DNA from: Halarchaeum acidiphilum MH1-52-1
GTDB taxonomy: Archaea > Halobacteriota > Halobacteria > Halobacteriales > Halobacteriaceae
Length of the DNA: 64,000 nt
Direction: 5' to 3'
Assembly: GCF_000474235.1 (NCBI RefSeq)
Contig: NZ_BATA01000004.1
Location: 1 to 64,000, forward strand
Part shown: piece after piece, positions 5,259 through 26,985 of the stretch
How the letters are laid out: each line of letters starts with the position of its first letter
How positions within the stretch are numbered: position 1 is the first letter of the stretch
The notes under the pieces: model-generated
What the model was told of the DNA's origin: nothing
Database searches by the model: none
What the model saw: the letters and a program-made list of their open reading frames with translations, nothing else
Made by a program: the position numbers and the translations under genes

Positions 5259-6260
5259 GTGGTTATTCGTATTGAGTCTCTCAGCGTAGAGAACCTGCGA
5301 TGTTTCAACGGAGAGCATCAACTGGACCTCGGAGAAAACGACGAGGCCAGTATCGACGTGATCTCCGGCCCCAACAGCAGCGGGAAAACGACCCTGGCCG
5401 ATTCCATCCAGCTCTGCCTCACCGGCGAATTTGAGGACGAGGCACTGCTGGTAACCTACGAACTGGTTGATCAGCTCTCCCCCGGCGAAGAAGTTTCTGC
5501 GAAGGTCTCGGCAGTCATCTCCGACAGCGATCTCGACCGAAAATTCCGATTCTCCCGCGAGTTCCAGACGTCGGAAACCCGACGCGGCCCGGTCAACTCC
5601 GTTGACTCTCTCCAAGTCGAAGAGGAGGAGGGCGGTGACTGGGTGAGCGTCAGTTCGTCAGAAGCCGTGAACACGGTGTTCCCGCTTCAAGCATTCACGT
5701 TTTGCAAACTTGATTCTGATTCCTCCATCGGGATCGACAATCCGTGGGGCGGAACCAGTTGGAGCGAACTCGTCGAAGACGTCGGTGAAGCTGCAGCCCA
5801 GCAGTCCGCAGCCAGGGGGGTAGATCTCCCTGACTTCTTCTCGAACAGCTACGATCTTGGCGACGAAATGCTGTGTCGGGTCAACGATCTGCTGGACAGT
5901 ATCGATGGCCGATATAGAGTTGAGGAACGACAGGACGGGTTGGTTGGCCGGTCTGCAGAGAATGGTTCTGGAGGAAAAGTCCAGAGCCTCCCGGCAGGGC
6001 AGCAGATCCTGATCTCGCAAGCCGCCGCCTTAGTCGCCGGCGAGATGATGATTGCCACCCCACCGCTGATCGGGGACTCGATTTTTGGCCGCGTCGACAG
6101 AAATCTACGGAAGGATCTCGCAGAAGTGATCCAGGAGATGGATCGCCATGTCCTCCTATTCGTGATAGAACCAGAGCTTGAAGGATTAGACCTTAATCCA
6201 CGGTTCAAACTGGAACGGACCCAGAAAGACATGAGCAGCCAAATCGTCTCCCTCGAATAA
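5259..6260 (+). CDS. Small SMC/RecF-like ABC ATPase
   Basis: About 333 residues starting at GTG 5259. It opens with a typical SMC/RecF/Rad50 strand (IRIESLSVENLRCFNGEHQL) and a Walker A loop GPNSSGKTT. Towards the end come an ABC-signature-like LPAGQQILISQAA, and a Walker B/D-loop region around PLIGDSIFGRVDRN. There is no long coiled coil, so this is a head domain with a short insertion, unlike Rad50. ATPases of this class often partner with a nuclease; the nearest gene is the herA-nurA-rad50-mre11 operon, convergent to it. The start was chosen because homology begins there and the upstream codons are antisense to the exonuclease fragment. Confidence 0.7.
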   Translation: MVIRIESLSVENLRCFNGEHQLDLGENDEASIDVISGPNSSGKTTLADSIQLCLTGEFEDEALLVTYELVDQLSPGEEVSAKVSAVISDSDLDRKFRFSREFQTSETRRGPVNSVDSLQVEEEEGGDWVSVSSSEAVNTVFPLQAFTFCKLDSDSSIGIDNPWGGTSWSELVEDVGEAAAQQSAARGVDLPDFFSNSYDLGDEMLCRVNDLLDSIDGRYRVEERQDGLVGRSAENGSGGKVQSLPAGQQILISQAAALVAGEMMIATPPLIGDSIFGRVDRNLRKDLAEVIQEMDRHVLLFVIEPELEGLDLNPRFKLERTQKDMSSQIVSLE

Positions 6261-6356
6261 TCCGCTTACTGGTGCGCGGTGGGATTGTCAAGCATCCCAC
6301 TGCGTCAAATTGGTGACCCTTGTCGAGCCGGCTTCCGCGAAGGAGATATGACTGGT

Positions 6357-6483
6357 TGGTTCTGTTGAAATCCTTCGGCGTTGATATTGAGGAGAGTTAC
6401 TCTTCCCATCGGATTTCACGGATCCGATGCGAAACTTGCTTCCCAGCAAACCGCAAGACGGCAAGAGGGTTTCAACAAAGCCT
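6357..6483. repeat. MITE-like element with imperfect 18-bp inverted ends
   Basis: The left end 6358-6375 (GGTTCTGTTGAAATCCTT) and the right end 6465-6482 are inverted copies matching at 14 of 18 positions. They enclose about 90 non-coding bases between two convergent genes. A third copy of the core TTTGTTGAA lies at 31952-31969. This looks like the remnant of a small non-autonomous insertion element. No transposase is present. Confidence 0.35.
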
Positions 6484-6525
6484 ATCTTCTTGATTAGGAG
6501 TGAATTCCAACCCTGATATGCCGAG

Positions 6526-8396
6526 TTAGTTACTGTGCTGCGTGAGACAGTACGGTAAACCGACGACCTCAACGGCCTCAACGTCAGGGGCCTTCACGAC
6601 GGCTTGGCCTTTGCCGAAGTTGGCGATGTCTTTCTCGTAGCCGCGCGGGACGGACGGGACTTTCTGCACAACCTCCTCTCGGAGACCGAGGAGGACGTTC
6701 GTGTTCGTTTGCTTGAGGATGTCGCCGTCGATGTCTTCGGGGTTCTGCGTGATCATGAAGAGGCCGAGCTTGTCCTTTCGGCCTTGCTTGACGGCGTCAC
6801 GAGCGCGCTCCACGATGTACGATTCCCGCAACGTATCTGGACTAGAGACGTAATTGTGGGCTTCGTCGACGGCGACGAGTAGTGGCGTGTCTTTGACGTG
6901 CTCGTCGACGTCGTAGTCGTCGATCTTGTTGTCAATGATGTACGAGAGGATGGAGAGGACGGTGAGTTCCTCCTTCGCGCCGTGGAGGTGACTGGTGGGG
7001 ATGACGCTGACTTGGCCCTCACGGAAGAGTGCATTCGAGATTTCAGGGAGGGGATTCGTGCCGTGGTCGAAGACGTCTTCGTAGGCGTCGTCGGTAACGC
7101 GGCGATTGATGGCCTCCCAGGTCTTCTCCCCGATGCTGTAGCGTTGCCGAAGCTGGCTCTCGGAGTCTGCGTTCGTGTCGAGGAATCGAATGAAGCCCGC
7201 GTACGAGGGGTCGTCAGTTTGGTCGAAGTACGCGCTGATACAGTTTTCGAGTGCGCCGCGCGTGACCTCGGTGGGCTTGTACGGCATGAGGAGCTGTGGG
7301 CGGTCCTCGACGAGGCTGAACGGAATCGTCAGGTTGCGGCTCTCTCCGGTGGACGGTGCGTTCGTACGTCCGATCTCCGGGACAAATGTCTGTAGCGAGT
7401 CGATGCCCCCGACCTCAATGCCTTGTCGTTGGAGTCGTTCAACCAGCCCGGACTTGTCAGCGAGTTCTGGGTTGCCGTTCCGCATCTCGGAGTACTCGTT
7501 CTCCGGATCGAGGATGACGATGTTGAGCCGGCTGTGCTCCGTGTCGCCGGTGTCGTGGTTCTCGATAGGGTAGCGCTTGTCAGTGGCGTACTGCCGGAGG
7601 AGGTTCTTCGTGAAGTGCGTCTTACCCTTCCCGGTCGAGCCGGCGACGAGCGTGTGACGGAAAATCGTGGGCTCACCAGATTCGACGTCACCGGTGACAG
7701 AATCACGCCGGGGTTGGCGAGGTAGTAGGGGAATGGGTCGCCGTCGATTTCGACGCGGTCGCCGCCGACGGACAGATACCCGGCGAATACGCCCTCGTGC
7801 GGGATGTTGAGCCCGGTGCGGAGATACGCTTGATCAAGCGAGAACGCGACCGGCGTGTTTGGTTTCGGGATCTTGTTGACGATCCCGCGGTCGAGGCCGT
7901 CGTCGGTCGGGGAGACGATGGCGATGGGTTCGAGCTCGGCGACGAGGACGAACTCGGTCTCGTCGAGCGCGTGCGCGGCGGCGATCCGATTGTGCGTGTC
8001 GGACTTGTCGTCGAGTTCCGTGTACGGCTCGTAGCGCAGCCCGTCGACGATGGCGAACAACTCGTCCGGGGTCGTGCCGTCCTCGGGAGACAGGTACGGG
8101 ACTTGCACGTAGTCGCCGACGCGGACGTCGTCGCGGCAGTCGGTCTTGACGAACGCGTTGACCTTGTAGTCGCCACGTGTGACGTGGATCTCTTCGCTGG
8201 CGACGATGTGACCGAGCTCGTCCTCGTCGGAATCAGTCAGCGCGTTCGGGACGGGCGTCTCGGGGACGCTCGCGTCGGATTCGACATCGCCACTCCCGTC
8301 CGTGGCTTGTTCGGCTGTGTCGGTGGATTCGGTCGTGGTTGATTCGTCGTCTGCGCCGGGGTCGTTTTCGAGGAGGTCGTCGAGGTCGTCGCTCAT
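6526..8396 (-). CDS. herA: HerA-type DNA translocase/helicase, frame broken by one missing base
   Basis: Reads as about 623 residues when one base is restored between 7688 and 7700. The upstream frame runs through a HAS-barrel-like N-terminal domain up to YYLANPGVI; the downstream frame starts at GDVESGEPTIF. Walker A is VAGSTGKGKTHF and Walker B is TPLLVAVDEAHNYV. C-terminal helicase motifs follow (ITQNPEDID). HerA is a hexameric ATPase that works with NurA to resect broken DNA ends. It is the last gene of a four-gene unit and overlaps the nurA stop by 4 bases. Because many unrelated genes here lack one base, I read the shift as a sequence error rather than inactivation. Confidence 0.85.
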
Positions 8397-9682
8397 TGTT
8401 GGAATTGGGTTTCGGGGGATTGTTCGATGTCGTTCCAGCGGCCGTCCCAGTTGTAGTCGTACGCGTAGTCGGCGGTCGTGAGGAAGTCTCGGATGGTGTC
8501 GCGGTTCTCGGGACTAACTCGGGCGATGCGGTCGGCGCGCTTGACGGCACGCGGTACGTCTTGCGTCTGCGCGATCTCCTTCAGTACCTTGTACTGGAGT
8601 TCGTCGCGCGTCTCCGCGTCGGCGATCATGAGCTGCGGTGTTTCGACGCGGAGGACGCCGCCGGTCTTCGGGAGGCGGACGTAGAAGAACGCGCGGCGAT
8701 AGTCTGCCGGCGCGCCGTGTGAGAGGTCGTCGCGGTATGGCTCCAGGAGTTCGAACGCCTCTCCGTTGACGGGAGCCTGTTCGTGGACGAACCAGGACGT
8801 GTACGTGAGGTGTTCGAGGCTCTCGTCGCGGAGTACCTCTGCGATGAACTGGTGGTCGCGCGTCCACGGCACGTCGGGCGTCGTCCCGCGCTCACCCACG
8901 ACATCATTCTCAGCGAGTTTGTCGTCGAGCGCGTCAAGGAGCTGGCTGATGGTGGAGGTCTTCACGACGCCGACGACCGGGAAGCCCTTCTCGTACTGGG
9001 TGTCGATCACGTCGATGTAGTTACGGACGATCTCGTCGGGTTTCTCCCACGTTCCGACGGGTGTCGTCCGGCCGACTTTGTCGAGGAGGACCCAGTAGAG
9101 CACGCCGAGCGGGTAGACCGCGCCGTCGATGAACAACACCCCGTCGAAGGCGTCCACGTTCGCGGCGACGTGCGAGCTTTCGGCGAGGCCTTGCGCGGCC
9201 GTGGCCACGGACTTCGAGAGCGTCGCCGAGCGATTGGTCGAGGGGAACTGGACGACTTCGCCGGACACGTGGTCCGTTTCGAACTGCTGGGGGTGGAGCG
9301 TGCTCTCGCTGTCGGCGAGATAGACGACGGTTTCGATGGTTCCCGAGTCCTCGATGCGTTTGTCCGCGTTCGCGCCGGCGACGCCGATCTTGGCGTACGC
9401 CGTGTCCACTATCAGCCCGTTGTTGAACTCTAAGGGGCGGGTGGTGCTCGCGTCGAGGCCGTACGTCGGACTGCCCCACGGGTCGCCGGTCCACGTGCCG
9501 AGCTCGTCGATCCGCGTCTTCCGGTACGACGGGTCGTCGAGCGCGCTCACGCGGCCGCCGTCGAGCGCGAGCCGGTCGAACAGTTCGCGCGCGTACTCGG
9601 ATTGTGACGTGACGTCACGCGGGATGTTCGTGTCGATGTGGGCGAACATCTCGCGGACGATGCCGAGCGCGTCCGCGTCCAT
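8393..9682 (-). CDS. nurA: DNA double-strand break repair nuclease NurA
   Basis: 429 residues, intact. The NurA fold is visible: the first acidic motif GLDASTTRPLEFNNG, a second VLFIDGAVYPL segment, and a C-terminal region with FFYVRLPKTGGVLRVETP. NurA is a 5'-3' nuclease that forms a complex with the HerA translocase and acts after Mre11-Rad50. The gene directly follows the rad50 stop (zero spacing) and overlaps herA by 4 bases, so translation is coupled. Its presence in an accessory region suggests a second, possibly defence-dedicated, set of these proteins. I cannot see whether the chromosome has another. Confidence 0.9.
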   Translation of the reverse strand: MDADALGIVREMFAHIDTNIPRDVTSQSEYARELFDRLALDGGRVSALDDPSYRKTRIDELGTWTGDPWGSPTYGLDASTTRPLEFNNGLIVDTAYAKIGVAGANADKRIEDSGTIETVVYLADSESTLHPQQFETDHVSGEVVQFPSTNRSATLSKSVATAAQGLAESSHVAANVDAFDGVLFIDGAVYPLGVLYWVLLDKVGRTTPVGTWEKPDEIVRNYIDVIDTQYEKGFPVVGVVKTSTISQLLDALDDKLAENDVVGERGTTPDVPWTRDHQFIAEVLRDESLEHLTYTSWFVHEQAPVNGEAFELLEPYRDDLSHGAPADYRRAFFYVRLPKTGGVLRVETPQLMIADAETRDELQYKVLKEIAQTQDVPRAVKRADRIARVSPENRDTIRDFLTTADYAYDYNWDGRWNDIEQSPETQFQQ

Positions 9683-12600
9683 TCAGTCGTCCCCCGCGGT
9701 CCGCATCGTGATCTGACTCGTGTTCGACGCCTCGTCGATGGTGACGTAGCACTCGTGGTCAGCGCCGTGGATGAGGCTCTCGTCATGCGAGACGACGATG
9801 ATCTGCGGGACGTTCCACTCCTGGATCGTGGTCAGCATCTGTTCGAGCTGCCCGACGTGACCTTCGTCGAGGAACGTCGTCGGCTCGTCGAGGATGAACG
9901 GCGGGAGCTGGCCCTGGTTGCCGCCGTGGAGTTCGGCGATGAGCTTGTAGATGCCCGCGCGGAGCGCGAGATTCACGATAGCGCGCTCGCCGCCGCTCGC
10001 GTTGCTCGGGTCCTCGGTCGTCCCGTCGTCGCGCAGCAGGCGAATGTCGTACTCGTAGCTATTGCGTCGCTCGTTGTACGCTTCCTCGATGAGGACCTGC
10101 TGGTAGCTGCTGTTCTTGTAGATCTCTTTAAATATGTCGTTCGTGTACTCGTTGATGTACGCGAGGTACTGCTCGCGGAGGTCGGACTTCGTGCTCTCGT
10201 AGATGGCAATCGTCGAGTCCAGTTCGTCGTGGACTTCCTGCGCCCAGCGTTCCTTCCGTTCGAGCAGGTCGATCTGCGCCTGCGTCGCGCGGAAGTTCTC
10301 CAGCTCGGTTTCCAAACGCGTCCGTTCGTCGCGGACGTTCTGGAGTTCGTCCTGCCGGTCGTCGCGCTGGTCCTGGCGCTTCTCTACGAGTTCCTCGACT
10401 TGGTCCAGGTCATTCCGGAGGTCCTCGATGTCCTTGTCACCGAGGTCGTCCTCGATGTCCTCTTTCTCCTCGCGGAGACGGGCGATCTGTCCGTTGAGAT
10501 CTTCGACCCGGTCACGCGAGTGCTGAATGGACTGCTGCTCCTGCTGGATCGTGGTTCGGAGGCCGTCAATCTCGTCGTAGCGTTCGACGGCATCGTCGAC
10601 TGTCTCCCAAGCGTCGTCACGCTCATCGACGCGCTCGTCCGCGGCTTCGAGGGCGGCTTCGGCGTCCTCGACAGTCTGCTCCTGATCGGCGATGTCGTCT
10701 TCGAGGTCCGCGATCTCCTCGTCTAGCGTGTCGATGGCATCGACCACGTCTTCGATCTCGCTCTGGAGGTCATCGGTCTCGGTGTCGAGCGCGTCGACCG
10801 CGTCACGCTGCTCGCGGACCGCCTCGAACGTGTCGGCCACGTCGTCCCCGGTCTCGATGTCCGCGGTGACGGTTTCGATCTCTTCGTCGAGGTCCGCGAC
10901 ACGGTCGTCGAACTCGTCGATTTCAGCCTCCAGTTCGATGATCGTCTCGCCACGAGCCTCGATGGTGTCTTCGAGATCGCCGATACGAGTCTCTAGGTCG
11001 TCCGCTTGCTCTCGAAGCGATGTCACGTCCTCCCGAGCCTCGGCCAGCGTGTCCTCACGGAACTGGATAGCGTCGAGGACACCTTCCCGGAGCGTCTGCA
11101 GCGACTCTTTCTCTGACTGGAGCGCTGCCTCAGTCTCTCTGGCATCTTCGAGGGCGGCCTCCGCGTCATCGATCTGTGCTTCGAGATCCGTGACCTCATC
11201 AGCCACGTGTGTTTCATCGACTGACTGGCCACATTTCGGGCACATGCCTTCGTCTTCGAGGGCTTCGAGCTCAGCGATCTCTTCCTCGTAGCGCTCGATG
11301 TCGTTCTCGTGGCCGGCGATGGTGTTCCCGACGTCGTTCAACTCGGCGTTGACCTGCTCGATCCGGTTCGGGAGGCCCGTATCGCGGAGCTCGTCGAGGT
11401 CATCCGTGGTCACGTCGATGTCGAGGTCGGAGCCGGCCGACGCGAGGTCATCGAGGCGGCGTTCGAACTCGTCCTCGGCGTCCGCGAGGTCGTCCTCGGC
11501 GCGTTCGATGTCGTCCTCGATGTCGGTGAGCTCGGCCTCTGCCTCTGATAACTCGTCTTCGGCGTCGTCTCGCTCAGACCGCGCGTCTTCGAGATCCTCG
11601 CTGGTGTGCTCGCGCGTCGCGGTGACCTCTCGTTTCGTCCCGGTCAGATCTTCGCGTTGCTCACGGAGGTCCTCGATCCGGTCCGCGACCACTTGCTCGT
11701 GCTCGTCAGTGACCTCCTCGGGATCGTCAACATCTGGGAGGAATGCCGCGACGCGCTCGTTCCGGTCGCTGAGCCGAGCATCGAGGTCCGACTCGGCGTC
11801 TTCGAGGCCTGCCTCTGTCTCGTCGAGGCTTGCTTCGAGTTCGTCGCGCTCGTCCACGCGTGTTTCGCGCTCGTCACGGGCCTCGGTGAGACGCCCCTGT
11901 AGGCGCTCTAACTCGGCTTGCGCGTTCTCGAAGTCGTTCCTCCGCTCTGCCCGCTCGGTGGACGCGGCCGTGTATTCGCTCTGTGCCTCGTCGCGTGCGT
12001 CACGAGCGCTATCGGCCGTGGTCAGATCGTACTGGACCCCGTCGTCGAGGGCGGCAATCTCGTCTTCGAGAGCGTCGATGTCGTGGTGGGCGTCTTCGAT
12101 TGCGGACTCGCTCTCGTCGATCTCAGACTGCGCGTCCGCGCGTGCCTCCTGCGTGGACTCGATCTGTTCGACCTTGTCGTCGCGTCGCGCTTCGAGAGTT
12201 TCGTAGTTCTCGATGTCGCCCTCGATACGGTTGCGTTGCTCTTTGAGCTGGTCGATGAACTCGTCGAACTCCTCGATCTTCGCGTCCAGTTCCTCAATCC
12301 GCTCGGTGAGAGATTGGATCTCGTCCTCGTACTCCGGTTCGGTGTACTCGAAGTCGTCGAGGTCCTCCTCGTAGTTCTCTCGGCTGCTCTTGTTTCGCTC
12401 TTGGACGCGCCCGGCCCCGCGGCGTGCGAGTTTCATCCGCTCGATGTAGTCGTCAATCTCGTCGAGGCCGAGCAGGCTGTCGATCATCTCCGCGCGGTTG
12501 CCGGCGTCGATCAGCCGGTCGATCTCGCCCTGCTTCACGTAGACCGAACTGGAGAAGTCGTCCTCGTCCATGCCGAGCAGGCTGATGACTTCGTCGCGGA

Positions 12601-12952
12601 CCGGGCCGATCCCGGTGATCGGTTCTGAGAACGAGGGAGCGTCGAGCGTGGCGCTGTTCGGCGTGTTCGTCGTGTACAGCTCCCACGTCACAGTGTACTC
12701 GGTGCCGTCGATCTCGAAGACCAACTCCACTGTTCCTTTGTCTTCGCCGCGCCGCACGAGGTCGTCGAGCGTGAAGTCGTTCGTCCCGACGTTCCGGATC
12801 TTCGAGAGGAACAGGCCACCGAAGATCCCCATTAGGAGCGAGGTCTTCCCGGCCCCGTTCTCACCGTGGATGAGGATCGTTCCCTCTGGGAACTCGACGG
12901 TCTGGTCCTCGTAACTCCGGATGTTCCGGAGCGTGAGCGAGGTGATCTTCAC
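9683..12952 (-). CDS. rad50: DNA double-strand break repair ATPase Rad50
   Basis: 1089 residues. The N-terminal head has the Walker A loop HGENGAGKTSLL near residue 35. Very long charged coiled coils (about 170-880) surround a zinc hook CPKCGQSV in the middle. The C-terminal half-head has a signature-like SGGERAIVNLALR, then LDEPTTFLDEGH (Walker B and D-loop) and VVSHDE. Length and layout are those of a full archaeal Rad50. It tethers and processes DNA ends with Mre11; the two genes overlap by 4 bases. Long antisense open frames here are by-products of the repetitive Glu/Asp/Leu codons of the coiled coil. Confidence 0.95.
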   Translation of the reverse strand: MKITSLTLRNIRSYEDQTVEFPEGTILIHGENGAGKTSLLMGIFGGLFLSKIRNVGTNDFTLDDLVRRGEDKGTVELVFEIDGTEYTVTWELYTTNTPNSATLDAPSFSEPITGIGPVRDEVISLLGMDEDDFSSSVYVKQGEIDRLIDAGNRAEMIDSLLGLDEIDDYIERMKLARRGAGRVQERNKSSRENYEEDLDDFEYTEPEYEDEIQSLTERIEELDAKIEEFDEFIDQLKEQRNRIEGDIENYETLEARRDDKVEQIESTQEARADAQSEIDESESAIEDAHHDIDALEDEIAALDDGVQYDLTTADSARDARDEAQSEYTAASTERAERRNDFENAQAELERLQGRLTEARDERETRVDERDELEASLDETEAGLEDAESDLDARLSDRNERVAAFLPDVDDPEEVTDEHEQVVADRIEDLREQREDLTGTKREVTATREHTSEDLEDARSERDDAEDELSEAEAELTDIEDDIERAEDDLADAEDEFERRLDDLASAGSDLDIDVTTDDLDELRDTGLPNRIEQVNAELNDVGNTIAGHENDIERYEEEIAELEALEDEGMCPKCGQSVDETHVADEVTDLEAQIDDAEAALEDARETEAALQSEKESLQTLREGVLDAIQFREDTLAEAREDVTSLREQADDLETRIGDLEDTIEARGETIIELEAEIDEFDDRVADLDEEIETVTADIETGDDVADTFEAVREQRDAVDALDTETDDLQSEIEDVVDAIDTLDEEIADLEDDIADQEQTVEDAEAALEAADERVDERDDAWETVDDAVERYDEIDGLRTTIQQEQQSIQHSRDRVEDLNGQIARLREEKEDIEDDLGDKDIEDLRNDLDQVEELVEKRQDQRDDRQDELQNVRDERTRLETELENFRATQAQIDLLERKERWAQEVHDELDSTIAIYESTKSDLREQYLAYINEYTNDIFKEIYKNSSYQQVLIEEAYNERRNSYEYDIRLLRDDGTTEDPSNASGGERAIVNLALRAGIYKLIAELHGGNQGQLPPFILDEPTTFLDEGHVGQLEQMLTTIQEWNVPQIIVVSHDESLIHGADHECYVTIDEASNTSQITMRTAGDD

Positions 12953-14118
12953 TGCTCGCTAACCTCGTCATCATCCGTATCGTCCAGGTCCGCGAAGGCG
13001 TCCGTTTGGGCGTCCTGAATCATCTCTTCGATGACGTCGTCGATCTCGTTGGTCGAGAGGTCGTCATCGGTCCGAATGCGATCTTCAACTGCAGTCGAAA
13101 TCTCGCTGAGGTTCTGCTCGGCGAGTTTCTCCTCGATGAGTTTATCCGCGCTCTGAATCGCGCCCTGCGGGCCGTCATCGGGGTCGAACTGCGTGCGTCC
13201 TCGGCGGTCATCGACCTTACAGACCGCAGCACCGTTATCGACGACCATTTCGTAGACGTCACTCGACGTGACCGGGGTCCGCTCACCGGCAAGCGTGACG
13301 ATGGCGACCTTGTCGTCCAGCCGGTGTCGCGCGATCTGGTCGCGTGCGTACCCGTGACTGTCCTCTTCATCGAACCCGATCCGGATCGAGACGAACTCCC
13401 GCGTGTCGAGTTCGAGCTCCCGTCGATCCAGTTCGCCGTCTTCAATTTCGAGCAGACTCACCGTCCGCGGATCTATCTCGTCCGTCGCACAGCGTTCGGT
13501 CGAGCCAGCGTACCACGCCGGGACGCTGTCGATGAGGGCACTCTCGGTCTGGTGATAGTCGCCGAGTGCGAGCGCGTCAATATCGATGTTCACGCGGTCG
13601 AGTACCTCCTGGAGGTCGTGGTCAGCGAGGAACTCTGGGACGGGGGGCTCGAAGAGCTGGTGGAGGCCGAGCAGGCAGAACGCGTCTGGGTTATCGGGTT
13701 CGTCGAGCGTGAAGTCGGTCGCCTCCCACGCGGGTTTGGTGACGGCGTCAATCCCGTAGAGCGCGACGTCGTCGGTCACCATCGTCGGCGTCCGCTCTAA
13801 GCGTTCGGCTGTGCCGGTCTCCCGAATGAGGTCGAGCCATTGCTCGTCCATCTTCCGGTCGTGGTTCCCGACGATCCCGTAGAACGGGATGTCCGCGTCG
13901 GCGAGCTTCCGGAGGATCTGGATGCACTCCGTGACGACCGGGAGCGAGGGCGTTCGACGGTGGAACAGATCGCCTGTATGGATGACAGCGTCCACGTTTT
14001 CGCTGACCGCGCGGTCGATGGCTGCCTCGAAGGCGTTCGTAAAGTCGTCTCGTCGGACGTCACTGCCGTACTGTCGATTCCCGAGGTGCGTGTCGCTGAC
14101 GTGGAGGATCGTAGTCAT
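12949..14118 (-). CDS. mre11: DNA double-strand break repair nuclease Mre11
   Basis: 389 residues from ATG 14118. It is a calcineurin-like phosphoesterase with the metal-binding series HVSDTHLG, HTGDLFHRRTP, GIVGNHDRK and later LGDYHQ. The C-terminal part is acidic, with a helical tail. Mre11 supplies the nuclease of the Mre11-Rad50 complex. It is the first gene of the mre11-rad50-nurA-herA operon. The start was chosen at MTTILHVSDTHLG, which matches the family; 12 upstream codons in frame look untranslated. The 200 bases before it are shared with the divergent Argonaute gene, and a TATA-like TTTAGATACATTA (minus strand, about 14160-14172) could drive the operon. Confidence 0.93.
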   Translation of the reverse strand: MTTILHVSDTHLGNRQYGSDVRRDDFTNAFEAAIDRAVSENVDAVIHTGDLFHRRTPSLPVVTECIQILRKLADADIPFYGIVGNHDRKMDEQWLDLIRETGTAERLERTPTMVTDDVALYGIDAVTKPAWEATDFTLDEPDNPDAFCLLGLHQLFEPPVPEFLADHDLQEVLDRVNIDIDALALGDYHQTESALIDSVPAWYAGSTERCATDEIDPRTVSLLEIEDGELDRRELELDTREFVSIRIGFDEEDSHGYARDQIARHRLDDKVAIVTLAGERTPVTSSDVYEMVVDNGAAVCKVDDRRGRTQFDPDDGPQGAIQSADKLIEEKLAEQNLSEISTAVEDRIRTDDDLSTNEIDDVIEEMIQDAQTDAFADLDDTDDDEVSEQ

Positions 14119-14282
14119 GAGATAGTGATGTATGATACCCGGGGCGCAGCGCACAATAATGTATCTAAACCAAGGTGAAAGTGGTCGTGGAGGAGGAGTG
14201 TGCTGATGCGTTTGGTTTTCTCATGGGCTCCAGACTGGCGTCTCAGTCTCTACTGTCGAACACCCTGGATAACGTCGGCCTA

Positions 14283-14295
14283 CCAAGATTTATAC
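14283..14295 (+). promoter_or_regulatory. BRE/TATA promoter of the Argonaute gene
   Basis: CCAAG followed by ATTTATAC. The TATA centre lies about 28 bases before ATG 14320, the spacing expected for a leaderless haloarchaeal transcript. This supports ATG 14320 as the true start. Confidence 0.55.
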
Positions 14296-14319
14296 GCTGT
14301 TGGGGAGTGTCGTGTCCTA

Positions 14320-16547
14320 ATGAGCGAGGTTCCCCCTACGAATTCAATCTCTCAGCAGTCGGACGTTGACCCCGGCACGTATCTCCTTAACGCATATTCT
14401 AAGGAACAGTTGAAGAATGTCTCAGTCACGCAGTATCGGCTAGATGTGGAGGGCGGAGTGAGTGGTGATAGATCGAGTTTCACGGGCTCTGCTGCCTATT
14501 GGTTGGACCAAGAGCACGGGACGCCTGTCTCAACGGCAGGTAAGATGCGCGTCGTATCTGCAACGAGTCTCTCTCAGCCAGTCTATGTCTGGGGCCAGCG
14601 CGTCGAAGCAGTCGAAGAGAAGAAAGTCACGCTCAGCCCCGAAAACCCACGAGAACGAGAAACACTCCGAAATTTCGTACAATCGTGTCTCCGACGAGCA
14701 GTCCCAGACAAGAAATACGATTACGAGTTCATTAATGAGATCGTCCGGCGGGAGCCAGAATTCACTTCAGAGAAATTTGCTGCCCATCCGAAACACGAAG
14801 TCAGAGTCCAGATTACGAACGCTGGTACTGTTCTCGCTCATATCGAATCAGGGTATACTCTTCGGAGCCGAATGACACTCGATGAGCTGTACAGCGAATC
14901 AGATAATCCGTATGGCGTTAAAGCAGCTCATGACCCCGAACGGTATTCGACCGAAGGCAGGGGTGGCTTCGTGGTTGGAGTGACCTACACTATACTGACC
15001 TTATCGAGAACGCCGGTGCATCGGTCGCGGAGATGCACGAAGGGGTCGCCGACGAGGAGTGGCGTCAAAAGCTGATCCAGGATGACCCTCGATTGCTCAA
15101 AATCAAGTACGGGAGCAACGTTCGCAATCAGGCCCCCCATTTCCTCAAACTAGCTCCGCGAATCGAACAGGTTCAGGACGAGGATTACGCCTTTTTCCAG
15201 CGGTTCGCGTCTCGCCGTTCGATGATGCCCGGCGAGAAATTTGAGTACACGAAAGAGTTCATAGAGAGCCTGTCGTGGCTACCGGTGCTGGAATTAGCAT
15301 TCGAGCCGGGCCCGACTAATGACGGATATAACTCCATAGATATACGGGGAACTCGGGATCGGTTGATCTTCCAGAACAGTGCACCGGCAAACAATCCGTC
15401 TGCGGGACTACGGCAATATGGCGTCTATCAGTCGCCCGGACAGTATCGCGTTGGTGTACTCGTCCCAGAAGCATGGAGTGAGATACAGCGGGAGTTCCCA
15501 GGACTGATCACGAAAGGGCTCGCGGAGATACAGGCTCCGGGCGGTGTTACAAAATACGAGTACGAACTAGGAGATATTTCGAAATATACGCCTATCGCGC
15601 ATCAGCTCCACGACGAGACGGAAGTCGTCGTCGCGGTAGTCCCTGATCCGGGTAAGTCTGAACAGTTTGGTATCGAAGATCCGCATCATGAGGTCAAACG
15701 GACTCTGATGCGGCAAGGCGTTCCAACACAGATGACCACCAAATCCACGGTGGACGAGCTGATCAAACTCGGTGCCGATGCTGGAAACGATAAGATGCTG
15801 AATATCCTGAGCGCCGTGGTCGGCAAGGCCGGTGGAACGCCTTGGCACATTCACGATATGCCCGGTGAGACGGACGCTTTCATGGGATTGGACGTTTCTC
15901 ACGATCAATCCTCTGACAAGCACACCGGTGCGAGCGCGAGCGTTGTACTATCGGACGGAACGACATATGCTGCGGAGTCAACTGTCGGTCAAAGTGGTGA
16001 GACATTCTCGGCGGAGCACGTCCAGCAGTTCGTTCGAGACTTGGTGTTCGACTTTGCGATGGAGCAAGGTACGGAGATCAACCGGCTCTGCATAATGCGT
16101 GATGGGAAAATCTCAGAGGATATAGACGCGATTCGGGACGGACTCAGTGAGTTATCTGCCGAAATCGACATCGTCGGCGTACGCAAAAGTGGCCAGCCGC
16201 GGGTTGCAGAATATGACGGGACTCATTTCTACATCGCACAGAAGGGTGTCGCATTCGTCTCGGATGGGCAAGGACACGCGATAATCCACGGATCTGGCAA
16301 GCCTGAGATCAAAGACGACAACAGCGTAGGGACTCCCCAGACGTATCGAATCACCCGACATTCAGGCCCGACGGATATCGAGACACTGGCCCGACAGGCA
16401 TACTGGTTATCAGAGGTCCATATCGGGAGTCCTGTTCGAAGTCCGCGACTCCCCATCCCAATTGGTTACGCTGATAAAGCAGCTAGCTACGTAAGTGACG
16501 AAATCGTTTCACCTGGCACCGTGATCAAGGGCCCCGCGTATATCTAG
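14320..16547 (+). CDS. ago: Long prokaryotic Argonaute with complete D-E-D-D tetrad; one base missing near 14980
   Basis: Two frames join into about 742 residues if one base is restored near 14980 (…GGFVVGV then DLHYTDLIENAG…). The first part holds the N, L1 and PAZ region. The second carries MID (a His-x3-Lys pair in DPHHEVKRTL, a candidate for the 5'-end pocket) and PIWI. The four expected catalytic residues are present: Asp in FMGLDVSHD (codon 15891), Glu in GQSGETF (15999), Asp in IMRDGKI (16101) and Asp in IGYADKA (16473). It should therefore be a guide-directed DNA (or RNA) cutter. It is transcribed away from the mre11 operon and converges with the GHKL/DUF3883 gene, a typical defence-island setting. 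If the frameshift were real, the internal ATG 15033 would give only a MID-PIWI-like protein. Confidence 0.9.
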
Positions 16548-16625: not shown

Positions 16626-19600
16626 CTACTCCTCCCACTCGATAGCGCGCTCGATGATCGGCTCGTCGTCGAAGTCAAAGCTGCGCAGGTCAACCTGGAC
16701 GTTCCGTTCGTGCGTTTCGCGCTGCCGGTTCCGTAGTCGCTTGAAGGGCTGGGGGATTTCGAGGATCTCCGCGTCACCGCTGTTCCCGACGCGGATGTTT
16801 CGGGCGACGTAGAGGTAGTAGTACTCGCTGAGCGCGCTGCCCGCGGCTTTCCACTCGTTCCACGAGAGGGAGGGCTTCTGCGTGTTCACGCCGGACGTCT
16901 TGAGCTCGATGCAGCGGTCGATCACCGGCTCCCCGTCGGCGCCGGTCTTGATCGTCAAGACGTCGAAGCCGGGCCAGTCGCGGTTGAGAGGATTCTCCGT
17001 GGCGGAGAGGCCACGCCGTGCGGCAAAGCGCTGGATCGCGCGTTCGAGTAGCCGTGAGTCCTCACGTCGCGCGCCGTACATCTCGGGCGTGTGGACGTCG
17101 AAGACCTTCGAGTCGGGATCTGATTCACCGGCGTCGGCGAGCCTGTTCCGTTCGGCGTTCATCGTGACCGCCATGCCGAACGCGTCGATCTCGTCGCGGT
17201 ACTCCTGCGATGCGGCTCCGCTACCGCCACGAGCCCCGGAACCGGACTGGCTGTGTGCCGTGGACTGTGGGCCGCTATCGTCGGCCGGGTCCGATGGCGC
17301 AGCGGCATCTCGGAGCGATTCCGCGATCCGGCTGTCGCCGATCCGGGTGACGGCGTCGATGCTGGGGACGCGTGAGGAGTGCGCGCTGGTCCCCGACGTT
17401 CCCCCGGATGGCTGTGAGCCACCGTCGCCGGTTGTGGTCACGGTCGTTGCGGCGTCGAACGCTCCTGCGGTGTCCTCCTCGGGCGCGGGCGGACGCGCCG
17501 CATCGTATTCCTCGCTCCCTGCAGTCTCGACACTGTCCTCGAAGAGATCTGCCCGGGTGGCGTCGATCTGGCCGTCCGGGACTTCGCTCCCGACGGTGCG
17601 GAGGCGTTCGCGTAACGCGATTATCGGTGTCGCGTTTCCGAACGCGTGGTCCACGAGGTTGTTGACGGCCTCGTAGTACTGGGGGACGTCGAGCCGGTCG
17701 GTGTACGCGCCGGTGAGCGCGTCGACGAACGCGTCCCGGTCGAGCGTCGAGTCGATGAGAACCGTCTCGACCGTGTCGCCGTCGCGTTCGATGTGGTAGG
17801 GCTGGGGTGTCGGGTCGAGGTTCCGGTCCCAGCTCCCGTCGACGAGCGAGACGTTCAGGTCGAGGTCGGTGACGAACTCGACGGTCTCGAAGAACGACCG
17901 AGTCCGGGTCGTGTCCTGGTCGACGAGCGCGGTGGAGGGCCGGTTCGTGCGGAGGCGGAGCACGAGCGCGGTGAGGACGGTCCGGAGCCACGCGGCGTCG
18001 ATCTCGAAGCCCGAGACGGTAATGGGAAGCGGGCGGTCGTCGCCGTATCCGGGTTCTTTCTCGACGGCGGCCCGCATGTCGGTCGCTCCGCAGTACGCGC
18101 CGAGGCTGGCGACGGCGGGCTTGAACAGCGCGAGGAGCGGGACGCCGAGGCCGCCATAGCGCTCGCGGCTGCTACGGGAGCGGACGAAGTAGGTGTCGTC
18201 CGCGCGTCTGAGCGCGTATTCGCCGTCGACGCGGCACAGGACGAGCGCGTCCGCGAGCCCGCTCTGCTTGGGTCGCCACTCGCCGGTGATGGGGTCGCCT
18301 CGCGTCAGGCCCGGGAGGAGTTCGGCGACGCGCGTGTAGAGGAGTTCGACGGCGCTACTGTACTGGGCGAGGTCGTCGTCGGTCCAGTCGAGGAGGTCTC
18401 CGATCCGCCCGAGCACGCGTGCGGCGTCCTGCGGCGAGAACGCGCCCTGCTCTAGACGCACCCCGATGCCGAGCGTGTCGGTGAGTTCTTCGAAGCTGAC
18501 CGGCGTCTCGGTCTCTCTGGTCGGGAAGTCGGGACTGTCGACGAACGGGAGGAGGGGCTGCGAGCCGTTCAGGTCGAGGCTGAATCGGTCGCAGTCGCGT
18601 TCCGGGAGGCTCCACGCGGCCGTCGGGCGCACCGCTCCGAAGCCGGTGGGGACCCAGTCGGATTGACGGAGCTGCCACACCCAGAGGTTTCGACCGAGCG
18701 TGGCTTTCTCGTCGTCGCTGAAGACGTAGCTGACGTTACTCCCGCGCCAGCACTCGTTCGTGAACTCGGCGACGACGGCGTGCCGCCGCGCGGAGAGCCC
18801 GTGGTCCCACCAGCGCGTGAGGTGCGCGAGGAGTCGCCGGCCCACGGTGTCGGATTCCTTCGCGGCCGAGAGGATCTCAGAGGCGTACTCCAGGGCGTTC
18901 ACCTGGAACAGGTATCGCTCGTCCGGGTTCGGGATCTCCGGCTCGACCGCGTCAGTGAGGTGCTCGCGGTACGCCTCCCACTCGGCGTCAGTGAGCCCCG
19001 TGTATCGGGGATCGAGATCGCTGTCCCTTCGAAGGTCGTCGGGCGACGTGATCGTCGAGTTCGAGGGGCGCTCGATCCCGCCCGTTTGACGGTACGTCTG
19101 CTGCTCGCCCGGCGCGAATAGCGGGAGCGGGCGGAGGTGTTCGAAGACGCCGAGCCACGAGAAGAACGCCGCCCACGCGTCGAGTGTCTCCGTGCGGGAT
19201 TCGTTCTCGTCCTCTTCGGTGACGAACCACGAGGGCGGGGCGAGGAATTTCGGGTCGTAGCGCTCGGAGTCGGTCCGCGCGTCGACGGCGTCGAGGAGCG
19301 ATTCGACGTGCGCGTCCGCAGGCCGGCCGAGCGCGGTCTGCCAGGCCGAGCTGAAGTACACGCGGTGCGCGGGATACCACTCGACGTCGCCGTCCTCGGG
19401 GGGCTGTGTCGGAACGGGGAGTTGCGCGAGCGCGGAGAACGGCTTCTTCGCGGACTGGTAGAGCAGTGGAGCGTCGGGGCTCCGGTCGTTCTCGGGCGAC
19501 TGGACGTCCGTCATCTCGCGGACCGTGTCGAGTACGGCGTCGGACGCGAGACGGGACGGGTCGGCGTCGGGCGAATTCGGTCCGGGGAGGTGCGGGCTGA

Positions 19601-21659
19601 TCGCGGCGTCGAACACCTGCGAGAACTGGTAGTCTCCGACGTCCCAGATCGCCTGGACGTCGGCGTCGAAGTTCGGCGGGAGCGCGTCGTCTCGGAGCGC
19701 CGGCGCGCGGTCGGGGTTCGTCCCGTGGTACAGTTCGCGCGGGAGGAATTCGAATTCCGGCAGCGCGTCCGCGGCGATCTCGCCCTCCGGCGGCATGAAG
19801 ACCGTCCCGGTCTCGTTCGAGCCGCGCCTCGCGCGCACCGTCCCGTCGTCGGCCGTCGTGATCTCGACCGGAAACACGGTGTGTCGTCGGCACGCCTCGT
19901 CGAAGGCCGAACGGTCCTCGTCGCTTTCGAGCGTCTTCCTGAGACGGACGAGATAGTCGAGCACCGGATCGACCGTGAGGCGGCACGGTTCGTCGTCGTC
20001 CGCGGGCGTGTGCCCGTACTCGCGTTCGTCGATGAGACGGAGTGCCGGATCGACGGCGGCGTCGGCGAGCGCGCCGGGGATCGACGCGGCGTCGTACTGA
20101 GTCGCACCGTACGCGACCAGCGTCCGCACGTGTCGATGCGTGGCGACCGCTGACGCCGGAACCTTCGGTCCGCCGTCACGTCGCTCGTCACCGGACTGGA
20201 GGAGTGACACGAAATCCGCACCGAGGTCCAGGACGTGCGCGGACGTGGGCGGAACCGTCACCTCGTCGAGCGCGACGGGTTCGTCGGCACGCGCGCTCGG
20301 GAGGAACGAGACCGAGGCGAGGTATTCCCTGAGCGCGCCGAAGAGACAGTCCTCGACCGTCCCCTGCGTGAACGACCACTCGCGGCGCTGGCCGAGCGAC
20401 GGGTCCAGCGTGTCGAGGAACTCGGCCGTCGTCGTCGCGGATCGTTCGACGAACGGAACGACGCGGTCCGCGACGAGGTCGCCGACCGCGGCGAACAGGA
20501 GCGCGTTGAACTGCCCCTCGTACCCGCGCGAGTTGTCGTGGTCGAGCGTGAGATTGCGCCGCGACGTGTCCGATTGGAAGGTCCCGGTCACGAGCGCGGG
20601 GACGGGGCTCCGTTCCGTGGTCGGGAGGAAGACGTGGAGGTACGGCGGCCGGTCCTCGGCGTCGCCGTAGACGGGCGCGAGTCGCCAGTCTTCCGGACGG
20701 CGGGAAGAGGCGTCAAGCGGCGTCGCAGTGAACGCGACGCCGACGCTCAGTTCGCCCATCGCCTTCACCTCCTGTTCGGTCAAGTCCGCTCGCTCCGAGA
20801 TCCGCTCTCGGTCGAGGTCGGTCTGCTCGAACAGACAGAACCAGTCCGTTCGTGTCTCGCCGGCGTCGTTCGTTTCGTTGCTAGCGTCGCTCGTTTCGTC
20901 GGTGGTGAGTTCGATCAGCGTCGCGTCGCAGTCGCGCATGTCGTGGCGGTCGATCCCCCACCTCCATTCCTCGTCCGGGCAGCTGATCTCGATGGCTTCG
21001 AGTTGCGGGAGCAGGGCGACCGTGTTCGCGTCGAGCCCGGCGAGCTTCGCTCGGATCGACTCCCGATGCCGGTCGGGCTCTCGGAGCGGGAGCTCGAACA
21101 CCGTCGTGAATCCCTCGTCCAGCAATTCGCGGACGGACGCGGGGGTCGTCGTTTCGTGCGGGAGACAGAGCAGGGGAACCTGGTCCGGGTCGAACTCGTC
21201 GTCCCGTCTGGAGACGATGTCGTCGTCGTCGTTCAGCAGGTCCGCCGTCGCGTCCCGGTCGAACTCCGCCTGGACGGTCTCGGAGAAGACCCGCGGGTTG
21301 TCCGTGACGCCGAGGACGGACGTGAACCCGCGGCCTTTGTGTCCGATTGTCGTTTCGCCGGCTTTCGTCGTCCGAGTGGTGAGCGTCAGCGCGTAGAGGT
21401 CCTCGATGGAGAACGCCGCGCCATTGTTCGCAACGAGGAGGGAGTCCTCAGTGAGTTCGAAGCGGATCCGGGGCTCGTCGGTGTCGTCCATCTCGTCGAC
21501 GGCGTTCTGGAGGAGCTCGAAGACGAACCGCCCCTCGTAGTCGGCGCGGTCCTGACGCTCGGTCCCGGCGTCGGCCTCGACGCGGTCCGGATTGCTCTCG
21601 TAGGTCTCGACGTGGCGTCGATGGATCTCTGAGAGAGACGCCGGGTCGGAGTCGCTCAT
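16626..21659 (-). CDS. Giant GHKL ATPase (sacsin-like) with C-terminal DUF3883 nuclease-like domain
   Basis: 1677 residues. The N-terminal ~150 residues are a Hsp90/sacsin-type GHKL ATPase: the N-box FVFELLQNAVDEMDD, then VANNGAAFSIEDL and IGHKGRGFTSVLG. More than 1,200 residues of unassigned, mostly helical sequence follow, then a low-complexity Gly/Ser/Asp-rich linker around residues 1440-1500. At the end a DUF3883-type segment has CIELKTSG (Glu-x-Lys, as in PD-(D/E)XK nucleases), NEWKAA and YYLYVARN. Proteins of this layout are seen in restriction and defence neighbourhoods; the mechanism is not known to me. It converges with the Argonaute gene, with about 80 bases between the stops. Confidence 0.8.
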   Translation of the reverse strand: MSDSDPASLSEIHRRHVETYESNPDRVEADAGTERQDRADYEGRFVFELLQNAVDEMDDTDEPRIRFELTEDSLLVANNGAAFSIEDLYALTLTTRTTKAGETTIGHKGRGFTSVLGVTDNPRVFSETVQAEFDRDATADLLNDDDDIVSRRDDEFDPDQVPLLCLPHETTTPASVRELLDEGFTTVFELPLREPDRHRESIRAKLAGLDANTVALLPQLEAIEISCPDEEWRWGIDRHDMRDCDATLIELTTDETSDASNETNDAGETRTDWFCLFEQTDLDRERISERADLTEQEVKAMGELSVGVAFTATPLDASSRRPEDWRLAPVYGDAEDRPPYLHVFLPTTERSPVPALVTGTFQSDTSRRNLTLDHDNSRGYEGQFNALLFAAVGDLVADRVVPFVERSATTTAEFLDTLDPSLGQRREWSFTQGTVEDCLFGALREYLASVSFLPSARADEPVALDEVTVPPTSAHVLDLGADFVSLLQSGDERRDGGPKVPASAVATHRHVRTLVAYGATQYDAASIPGALADAAVDPALRLIDEREYGHTPADDDEPCRLTVDPVLDYLVRLRKTLESDEDRSAFDEACRRHTVFPVEITTADDGTVRARRGSNETGTVFMPPEGEIAADALPEFEFLPRELYHGTNPDRAPALRDDALPPNFDADVQAIWDVGDYQFSQVFDAAISPHLPGPNSPDADPSRLASDAVLDTVREMTDVQSPENDRSPDAPLLYQSAKKPFSALAQLPVPTQPPEDGDVEWYPAHRVYFSSAWQTALGRPADAHVESLLDAVDARTDSERYDPKFLAPPSWFVTEEDENESRTETLDAWAAFFSWLGVFEHLRPLPLFAPGEQQTYRQTGGIERPSNSTITSPDDLRRDSDLDPRYTGLTDAEWEAYREHLTDAVEPEIPNPDERYLFQVNALEYASEILSAAKESDTVGRRLLAHLTRWWDHGLSARRHAVVAEFTNECWRGSNVSYVFSDDEKATLGRNLWVWQLRQSDWVPTGFGAVRPTAAWSLPERDCDRFSLDLNGSQPLLPFVDSPDFPTRETETPVSFEELTDTLGIGVRLEQGAFSPQDAARVLGRIGDLLDWTDDDLAQYSSAVELLYTRVAELLPGLTRGDPITGEWRPKQSGLADALVLCRVDGEYALRRADDTYFVRSRSSRERYGGLGVPLLALFKPAVASLGAYCGATDMRAAVEKEPGYGDDRPLPITVSGFEIDAAWLRTVLTALVLRLRTNRPSTALVDQDTTRTRSFFETVEFVTDLDLNVSLVDGSWDRNLDPTPQPYHIERDGDTVETVLIDSTLDRDAFVDALTGAYTDRLDVPQYYEAVNNLVDHAFGNATPIIALRERLRTVGSEVPDGQIDATRADLFEDSVETAGSEEYDAARPPAPEEDTAGAFDAATTVTTTGDGGSQPSGGTSGTSAHSSRVPSIDAVTRIGDSRIAESLRDAAAPSDPADDSGPQSTAHSQSGSGARGGSGAASQEYRDEIDAFGMAVTMNAERNRLADAGESDPDSKVFDVHTPEMYGARREDSRLLERAIQRFAARRGLSATENPLNRDWPGFDVLTIKTGADGEPVIDRCIELKTSGVNTQKPSLSWNEWKAAGSALSEYYYLYVARNIRVGNSGDAEILEIPQPFKRLRNRQRETHERNVQVDLRSFDFDDEPIIERAIEWEE

Positions 21660-21993: not shown

Positions 21994-22989
21994 ATGAGCC
22001 CATCATTTCATAACCAAGGTGGAAACCCTCCCGTTACCGAGGGCGCTTTGCTTTCAAAAATCGAGACAGCACTTGATGGCGCATTGGACGATCTTGACCT
22101 TGACGGCAGCCAGTCGTCTGTAAAGCGGGAGAAGTACCTCTGGTTAGCCGTTGAAGAATTCTCTGAGGAAGGAGATGAGCCGATAACGTATAGCTGGTTC
22201 AAATGGGGTGTGAGTTCTTTGGCAGGCCCGGGTGGTGAATCAACTAGCAGAACGTTGTCGACAGACTTCTCTATCGCAGCGAACCTTTTTCAGGCCACTC
22301 ATAGCCAGATTAAGGACTTCTTCGTTCAGGGAAACCACCAGATGCCACTAAAGGAGTGGTGGGACGCGGAGTTCCTCGAATTTTTGGAAGAATTTTACAC
22401 GCATTATGCCCCCGAGGACTATCGGCAGCTGTATCTGACGAATATCCGCCTACTTAAGATTATTGATGACATCGAAGAGGCGCTGAATTTCCGGCGTTCC
22501 CCTGCTCGGCGGGCTACGTACGAGGATATTACGGACGCAACAAAGACCCTTAAGAAGCAGGTGTTGCGTTCTGACGCCCTTGAAGACAACTATGAGTACG
22601 TGAACGACTTCGCCCAGCTTCTAGAAGACGTTGTGATGATGCTAGTGGACATCGAGGGGGAAGATATCGAACAAGGACACCAGACGGCGATTAGTGAACT
22701 AGAGGACTTTTACCGAGATGAGGTCTGGTTGATGACTGCTCATTCGATCTCTATTGATACGGCGGAGGGGCCGAACAAGGGGGATATCTACGAATGGTCC
22801 TCACAAAACCGTGATAGACTAAAGGCATCTTTCGAGGAAAGCCTTAAAAAGAAAAAGGAGATCTGTGACGCAGTTGGCCTACTGCCTGGAATTCAAGACT
22901 ACACAGGATTTGAAACGGGAGACAAGAATTTGGATGAAACAGTAGATGAATTCTTGAAGGTTGCGGGAGGTCGGTCATCACATGAGTAG
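21994..22989 (+). CDS. Hypothetical protein, first gene of a two-gene unit with a PIN nuclease
   Basis: 331 residues, soluble, mostly helical by appearance. A recognisable aromatic stretch near residue 60-70 reads YSWFKWGVSSLAGP. I do not recognise the family. Codon use and base composition are much more AT-rich than in the core genes to the right, which suggests recent transfer. The gene overlaps the next one (ATG 22982 inside its end), so the two products are made together. With a PIN partner it could be an antitoxin-like or targeting subunit, but it is far larger than ordinary VapB antitoxins. That role is inference. Confidence 0.75.
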   Translation: MSPSFHNQGGNPPVTEGALLSKIETALDGALDDLDLDGSQSSVKREKYLWLAVEEFSEEGDEPITYSWFKWGVSSLAGPGGESTSRTLSTDFSIAANLFQATHSQIKDFFVQGNHQMPLKEWWDAEFLEFLEEFYTHYAPEDYRQLYLTNIRLLKIIDDIEEALNFRRSPARRATYEDITDATKTLKKQVLRSDALEDNYEYVNDFAQLLEDVVMMLVDIEGEDIEQGHQTAISELEDFYRDEVWLMTAHSISIDTAEGPNKGDIYEWSSQNRDRLKASFEESLKKKKEICDAVGLLPGIQDYTGFETGDKNLDETVDEFLKVAGGRSSHE

Positions 22990-26083: not shown

Positions 26084-26985
26084 GCGAGCGAGCGCTCTCG
26101 CCGTCGCGGCTGGCGACGTACGCGACGTGCCCGCGGCAGTACGACTACGGCTACGTCCAGGACGTCAACACGCCCGACCGCACCGAACTCTACCTCAACC
26201 AGGGAACGATCTATCACGAGACCATCGAGGACGTCTGCGACGCGACCGAGCGCGACGACGACCCGGAGGCGATTCACGACCGAGCGATGCGGGTCTTCGA
26301 CGCGAAGTGGGACGAACACAGTAATCCGGACGACTACGAGTCGAACGCGCACCGGGCGTACCAGCGCGCGGAGAACCGCGCGGCCATCGACGCGTTCTTC
26401 GACCCCGATGGCGGTGACGGCATCAAGCACGCGCGCCGGTCGGTCGCCACCGAGGTCTGGGTGGAATGCGAGATCGACGGGCGCGCCCTCCACGGGAAAG
26501 CCGACAACGTGATCCGAACCGACGACGGACTCCACGTCTTCGACTACAAGCGGAACACGCGCGGCGTGCTCTCCAACGGAACGGCCGAGCGGCTCGCCGA
26601 CCATCTCGACGGTGAGGCCCACGAGCCCAAGCGCGCGCGGAACGCGTTCCAGACGGCGACGTACGTCGAGGGCGTGAAGAACGAACCGTTCTACGAGGAC
26701 GGGATGACGGTCCGGTTCAGCTTCTACGGCCTCCTCAACAGCACGTCGTTCGAGAGCACGCCCGACAGCTACGAGGTGTCCGTTCGCGGCTACCCGCGGG
26801 AGACGACGGACATTTACGCGGACCACTACGACACGATCAGGGCGCTCATTCGGGAGGCCCACGACGGGATCACGGGCGAGGCCTACGCGCCGGAGCCGTT
26901 CGACGTCATCGGCGACGAGGCGTGCCCGGACTGCGACTACCGGGAGATGTGTCCCGACCGCCTCTCGACGGAGGTGCGGCGATGA
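26080..26985 (+). CDS. PD-(D/E)XK nuclease of the AddB/Cas4 type with Fe-S cysteines
   Basis: 301 residues. It opens with LSPSRLATYATCPRQYDYGY (first Cys of the cluster). Nuclease motifs are HGKADNVIRTDDGLHVFDYK (Asp ... Asp-x-Lys) and a later QTATYVEGV helix with the Gln-x3-Tyr pattern. It ends with CPDCDYREMC, giving the three remaining cysteines for an iron-sulphur cluster. This matches the exonuclease domain of AddB, here a separate protein. It overlaps both its upstream and downstream genes by 4 bases, so the three are translated together. Confidence 0.85.
   Translation: MSERALSPSRLATYATCPRQYDYGYVQDVNTPDRTELYLNQGTIYHETIEDVCDATERDDDPEAIHDRAMRVFDAKWDEHSNPDDYESNAHRAYQRAENRAAIDAFFDPDGGDGIKHARRSVATEVWVECEIDGRALHGKADNVIRTDDGLHVFDYKRNTRGVLSNGTAERLADHLDGEAHEPKRARNAFQTATYVEGVKNEPFYEDGMTVRFSFYGLLNSTSFESTPDSYEVSVRGYPRETTDIYADHYDTIRALIREAHDGITGEAYAPEPFDVIGDEACPDCDYREMCPDRLSTEVRR

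Follow-up and report, generated by a model that had tools for sequence, protein, structure and literature searches.

Haloarchaeal pAgos (prokaryotic Argonautes) use the auxiliary nuclease AgaP, and the combination of a long-A pAgo with this PLD nuclease has been described as the APAP system (Cheng et al. 2024, PMC11442185). APAP resembles the locus reported here in joining a catalytic long-A pAgo to an auxiliary DNA nuclease module. A helicase neighbour is noted in that paper, whose main text contains no Mre11, Rad50, NurA, or HerA. For the pAgos CbAgo, SeAgo, and LrAgo, the guide patterns observed in E. coli reflect end processing by RecBCD, which shapes these patterns without being strictly necessary for guides (PMC10269773). 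These are likewise catalytic pAgos with an end-processing machine as guide source, but their machine is the unlinked E. coli RecBCD, whereas the machine considered here is archaeal and gene-linked. Helicase-nucleases also lie near pAgo in operons with UvrD or DEAD helicases, a survey of which found no fixed operon composition and has a main text without Mre11, Rad50, HerA, or NurA (Ryazansky 2018, PMC6299218). Across the main texts of Makarova 2009, Ryazansky 2018, and Cheng 2024, the neighbours described are PLD, UvrD, and DEAD-helicase genes, Mre11, Rad50, and NurA do not appear, and HerA occurs solely in a remark on sirtuins in Makarova 2009.

A HerA translocase is likewise combined with a nuclease in defence in the HerA-Sir2 and HerA-DUF4297 anti-phage systems. 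The thermophile-type core mre11-rad50-nurA-herA repair operon has the same four families in one coupled operon as our locus, which differs in being a second copy below equivalog cut-offs, with the core genes elsewhere. A full-text search of the open-access literature found no description of a pAgo paired with mre11-rad50-nurA-herA (MRNH), and within that literature the view of the initial annotation, that no system of this composition had been described, holds. We regard the kind as known (pAgo plus an auxiliary helicase-nuclease module) and the pairing with MRNH as a new variant of it.

Gene content of the locus

The window, a 64,000-nucleotide stretch of haloarchaeal DNA, carries an accessory MRNH operon divergent from a catalytic long-A pAgo, with gene identities and order given by Pfam. 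The features are as follows.

5259..6260, + strand: small RecF/SMC-like ATPase, convergent with herA (AAA_23 1.9e-10)
6526..8396, - strand: accessory HerA translocase (weak HerA_C match; PDB HerA match); one frameshift near 7710
8393..9682, - strand: accessory NurA nuclease (PF09376 1.5e-10; family alignment A1)
9683..12952, - strand: accessory Rad50 (SMC ends, zinc-hook CPKC; Pfam Rad50/SMC)
12949..14118, - strand: accessory Mre11 (Metallophos 5.8e-14; PDB Mre11 match)
14119..14319, no strand: divergent intergenic region between mre11 and pAgo, 201 bp (from the sequence)
14320..16547, + strand: long-A prokaryotic Argonaute, PIWI tetrad D-E-D-D (Pfam Piwi 3.6e-15; CbAgo/CpAgo PDB alignment); one frameshift near 14958-14991
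16626..21659, - strand: TmtA-like (Tiamat) defence protein adjoining pAgo (PADLOC PDLC03964 5.1e-64; SACS (sacsin-type) and NOV_C domains)
22084..22989, + strand: 301-aa protein of cluster c13, also in the pAgo loci of G128, G213, and G191
24026..26083, + strand: AddB-like helicase subunit, c17 (76% to L051 c17; weak UvrD_C)
26080..26985, + strand: PD-(D/E)XK nuclease, AddB/RecB-like, c16 (81% to L051 c16; PDDEXK_1 2.5e-23)
26982..30433, + strand: AddA-like UvrD helicase with PD-(D/E)XK nuclease, c7 (77-88% identity; UvrD 4.8e-61, PDDEXK_1 1.1e-23); frameshift near 27656

Pfam agrees with the initial annotation on the Argonaute and on the order of the four end-resection genes, and the sequence bears out its divergent promoter region of 201 bp, measured from the Mre11 ATG (14118) to the pAgo ATG (14320), with an alternative GTG start for Mre11 possible at 14154. 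The translational coupling that it proposed for the four genes is matched by reading frames that overlap or abut (Mre11/Rad50 at 12949-12952, Rad50/NurA at 9683/9682, NurA/HerA at 8393-8396). The small SMC-like ATPase that it placed convergent on the operon is present at 5259-6260; with this ATPase as query, no relatives were found in the 40 neighbourhoods searched, and it was rejected as a part of the system because it has no relatives at other loci.

Further downstream, and like the TmtA-like gene not noted in the initial annotation, the three AddAB-like genes (24026-30433) make up a second helicase-nuclease set in the window. The same trio was seen downstream of pAgo-AgaP, on the same strand, in at least 10 other genomes. 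Members of the c13 family were also observed near pAgo in G128, Haloferax elongans, and H. denitrificans, and the G128 homologue has no Pfam match. No match to AgaP was found in window positions 1-40000, which cover 13 kb upstream and 23 kb downstream of pAgo; the window pAgo was therefore rejected as an AgaP-type APAP member.

The nearest solved structures to the window pAgo are CbAgo and CpAgo. Alignment to both recovers all four PIWI catalytic residues, as the initial annotation had read them, and the corresponding columns (D287, E323, D357, D481) are invariant across 19 haloarchaeal pAgos. By its DEDX tetrad the protein belongs to the catalytic long-A class, and guide-directed cleavage is predicted. 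A six-row profile, built from intact relatives and the parts of the frameshifted window copy, aligns to CbAgo 140-742, a span expected to cover PAZ. A structure prediction for an intact relative reached a pLDDT of 42, and the model was not used. The closest pAgo, in G128, is 91% identical with an intact frame of 780 aa. By eye, many haloarchaeal pAgos (for example at L146, L150, and L162) have an OB-fold-like N-terminal extension; the extension is missing from the clade of the window pAgo, and a separate gene of similar appearance is present in G128 (L036 7325-8335). Strong matches in a phylum-wide search were confined to the same order, so that the pairing data come from Halobacteria, and the viral contigs searched held no pAgo relatives.

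All four end-processing proteins are homologous at family level to the core archaeal repair set by Pfam, PDB, and family alignment, while a PDB search with NurA alone gave no match. The initial annotation had raised the existence of a second, core set in the genome, and one was found, with Mre11-Rad50 on contig C164 and HerA and NurA on C70; the window operon as the sole core copy was thus rejected. The window proteins also miss the NCBIfam equivalog cut-offs (Mre11_Halo 296 of 550 bits, Rad50 463 of 1087), and the intact L093 relative of the window HerA scores 29 of 970 bits. NurA occurs in 289 of 294 haloarchaeal genomes, mostly as the core copy at ~30% identity, and accessory NurA (~33-95% identical) in about 34 of the 294. 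The haloarchaeal core HerA and NurA genes were seen as a pair apart from core Mre11-Rad50 (L109 529-4080, L108 1293-5263). Both proteins have been stated to be absent in Haloferax volcanii or not apparent in halophiles (PMC12977600, PMC7776575); in contrast with these reports, we observed a PF09376 match in H. volcanii as well.

Recurrence of the pairing across haloarchaea

The PIWI half of the window pAgo has matches in 44 of 294 haloarchaeal genomes, in which PF09376 and a protein search together identified 44 core and 22 extra NurA copies. In 14 of these 44 genomes, an extra nurA that is part of an mre11-rad50-nurA operon lies within 15 kb of pAgo (14 of the 22 extra copies; G000, G003, G061, G065, G068, G084, G096, G142, G152, G226, G244, G256, G271, and G281), compared with none of the 44 core copies. 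The defence-type control N6_Mtase (PF02384; 168 match rows, roughly 120-150 genes) had three genes within 15 kb of pAgo among the matches listed. The linkage exceeds this control with a Fisher p of about 1e-11, and pAgo is present in 13 of 34 genomes with accessory NurA versus 31 of 260 without (p = 3e-4), where the linkage counts were tallied by hand from printed coordinates and related genomes are non-independent. Trees address part of this non-independence: a minimum of 8 changes in the MRN label is needed on the pAgo tree of 46 rows, and on the NurA tree the linkage to pAgo needs 9 changes, of which supported branches force at least 7, each change being a gain or a loss. In the neighbourhood comparison that the initial annotation proposed, accessory Mre11-Rad50-NurA(-HerA) is thus recurrent, in some cases within one operon.

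In 35 of the 46 pAgo loci we found one or more of three unrelated end-processing modules, MRN(H), AddAB-like, or MrfAB-like, in the following architectures.

A: pAgo-AgaP-AddB-like-PDDEXK-AddA-like, single-strand run (Halorussus marinus, Halogeometricum limi, Halostella pelagica, Natribaculum breve, Halosimplex, and others)
B: Mre11-Rad50-NurA-HerA upstream of pAgo, same strand (L042, Halorubrum sp. Hd13, Halopenitus persicus)
C: pAgo-MrfB-MrfA with divergent Mre11-Rad50-NurA (Halobellus inordinatus, Halopiger djelfimassiliensis, Natrinema hispanicum)
D: MrfAB-like alone (Haloferax elongans, H. denitrificans)
E: the window, MRNH divergent and AddAB-like downstream

At L042, Mre11-Rad50-NurA-HerA-AgaP-pAgo form one operon, its genes separated by no more than about 31 bp. 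DUF2797 overlaps pAgo by 4 bp in Halorubrum sp. Hd13 and Halopenitus persicus, and loci L162 and L163 have a one-operon arrangement with a 4-bp DUF2797-pAgo overlap. Mre11-Rad50-NurA-HerA and pAgo are on opposite strands in G003, G065, and G271. In addition to AgaP and pAgo, some loci contain MRN(H) (L042, L050, L087, L090) or AddAB-like genes. At L184 (4310-13789), a same-strand run of Mre11-Rad50-NurA-HerA-AgaP was found with no pAgo, so MRNH can occur apart from pAgo. AgaP has been reported to be toxic without pAgo, yet it is present at this locus, where no pAgo was found.

The nearest relatives of the window itself are less uniform. G128 has an MrfAB-like pair in place of the MRNH genes, with the same AddAB-like genes ~9-12 kb downstream, and we infer that MRNH may have replaced MrfAB at the window locus. 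The nearest MRNH operons, with 94-95% NurA identity, are in G269, G246, and G189, genomes with no pAgo. Within the clade of the window's MRNH, seven copies are in pAgo-bearing genomes, and only those of G000 and G271 adjoin pAgo. The initial annotation had held that the link would be chance if close pAgo homologues rarely had these neighbours, or if the operon were the only copy and conserved in relatives lacking pAgo. For this locus, the closest relatives of each half do in part point that way, while the recurrence in the class and the second, core set point to a real link. We conclude that pAgo and end processing are genuinely paired in the class, in a modular way, and that support for the pairing in this particular window is only moderate.

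A candidate shared pathway and its alternatives

Our preferred reading, which we hold to be somewhat probable, is that pAgo and a dedicated accessory end-processing machine sit together in a defence island, with end processing and pAgo cutting forming one anti-invader pathway. In this scheme, Mre11-Rad50 would locate and open the double-strand ends of DNA that is invading or over-replicating, and those ends would be pumped in and shredded by HerA-NurA. Loaded with single-stranded DNA from end processing, pAgo would cleave invader DNA of matching sequence, every cut giving the machine fresh ends. Both the cooperation of the proteins and the direction of flow, from fragments to guides and from cuts to ends, are presumed. 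This reading draws on gene content, conserved catalytic residues, and the recurrent linkage of pAgo with MRNH or a functional substitute. RecBCD-derived guides, digestion by HerA-NurA, and the AgaP precedent together favour a shared pathway, which may run in either direction. In Thermococcus, HerA-NurA degrades dsDNA on both strands down to four nucleotides from each end, and an antiviral role was suggested in that study (PMC12977600). The four-nucleotide leftover may be too short for guides, which counts against a shared pathway, as does the tendency of defence islands to gather unrelated genes.

That tendency underlies the alternative that we find plausible though on balance doubtful, in which MRNH works on its own in defence or repair, accumulates in islands as pAgo and TmtA do, and is adjacent to pAgo here by chance. 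Some 22 accessory copies of NurA come from genomes that have no pAgo, operon copies lie near methylase, Dnd-type, OLD-like, and transposase genes, and TmtA adjoins pAgo in the window. Also against a shared pathway, the nearest pAgo is without MRNH, the nearest MRNH is without pAgo, and L184 has MRNH and AgaP without pAgo. However, chance adjacency does not readily account for a linkage that far exceeds the defence-gene control, for one-operon arrangements with pAgo, or for linkage repeatedly gained or lost on the trees.

It is also possible, if somewhat unlikely, that the machinery serves only to destroy DNA after cutting. Guides would then come from elsewhere, such as pAgo's own chopping or core nucleases, and MRNH, AddAB-like, or MrfAB-like proteins would just degrade pAgo-cut DNA, as AgaP adds nuclease power. 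HerA-NurA digested both strands non-directionally and made no 3' overhangs (PMC12977600), and the auxiliary nuclease AgaP is needed for plasmid restriction (PMC11442185), both in keeping with such a role. End degradation, rather than any one product, would be what the three modules have in common. Against this, the guide patterns of other catalytic pAgos depend on RecBCD (PMC10269773), and the present data fit either direction of flow.

A stronger form of the shared pathway, which we put forward tentatively and consider unlikely, treats the position beside pAgo as an exchangeable slot. MRNH, AddAB-like, or MrfAB-like modules would each act as a dedicated guide supply, converting invader ends into pAgo guides, with cutting and processing amplifying each other. 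In the work cited here, the sourcing of pAgo guides from invader versus host was studied with RecBCD in E. coli. With pAgo and a full end-processing machine in one operon, and three unrelated machines filling one interchangeable role, the guide question becomes testable in cultured halophiles. The loci further point to a possible function of accessory Mre11-Rad50-NurA-HerA operons.

Frame breaks in the window

The gene families named by the initial annotation are present, but pAgo and herA are each frameshifted rather than single open frames, which it had not noted. pAgo lies in two frames (+1 to about 14964, +3 from about 14958), and herA is split near 7710 with a net 1-nt length difference from L093; the HerA relatives in L093 and L095 are intact, with 623 aa and ~81-84% identity. 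With a third frameshift in the addA-like gene at about 27656, there are three frame breaks within 24 kb. Outside the island, each of three housekeeping genes (50305-51092, 51976-53096, and 53207-53964) has a single frameshift in the window but an unbroken frame in the three congeners compared. Since nearby genes are split at a similar rate, sequencing or assembly error is the simpler and likely cause, and we infer that the window genes are intact in the cell. The source genome is a draft of 165 contigs, 89.5% complete.

Decay of pAgo, herA, and addA into true pseudogenes of a set that no longer functions would fit these breaks and a congener, G239, in which just the end of the addA-like gene survives at the island site, but it was rejected as less likely than assembly error and is improbable given the draft assembly, the congener-intact genes broken beyond the island, and pAgo and HerA halves that are otherwise open with catalytic residues retained. 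What is left in G239 is the last ~220 aa of the addA-like gene (L139 13073-13732), a pattern resembling loss of the island from that genome.
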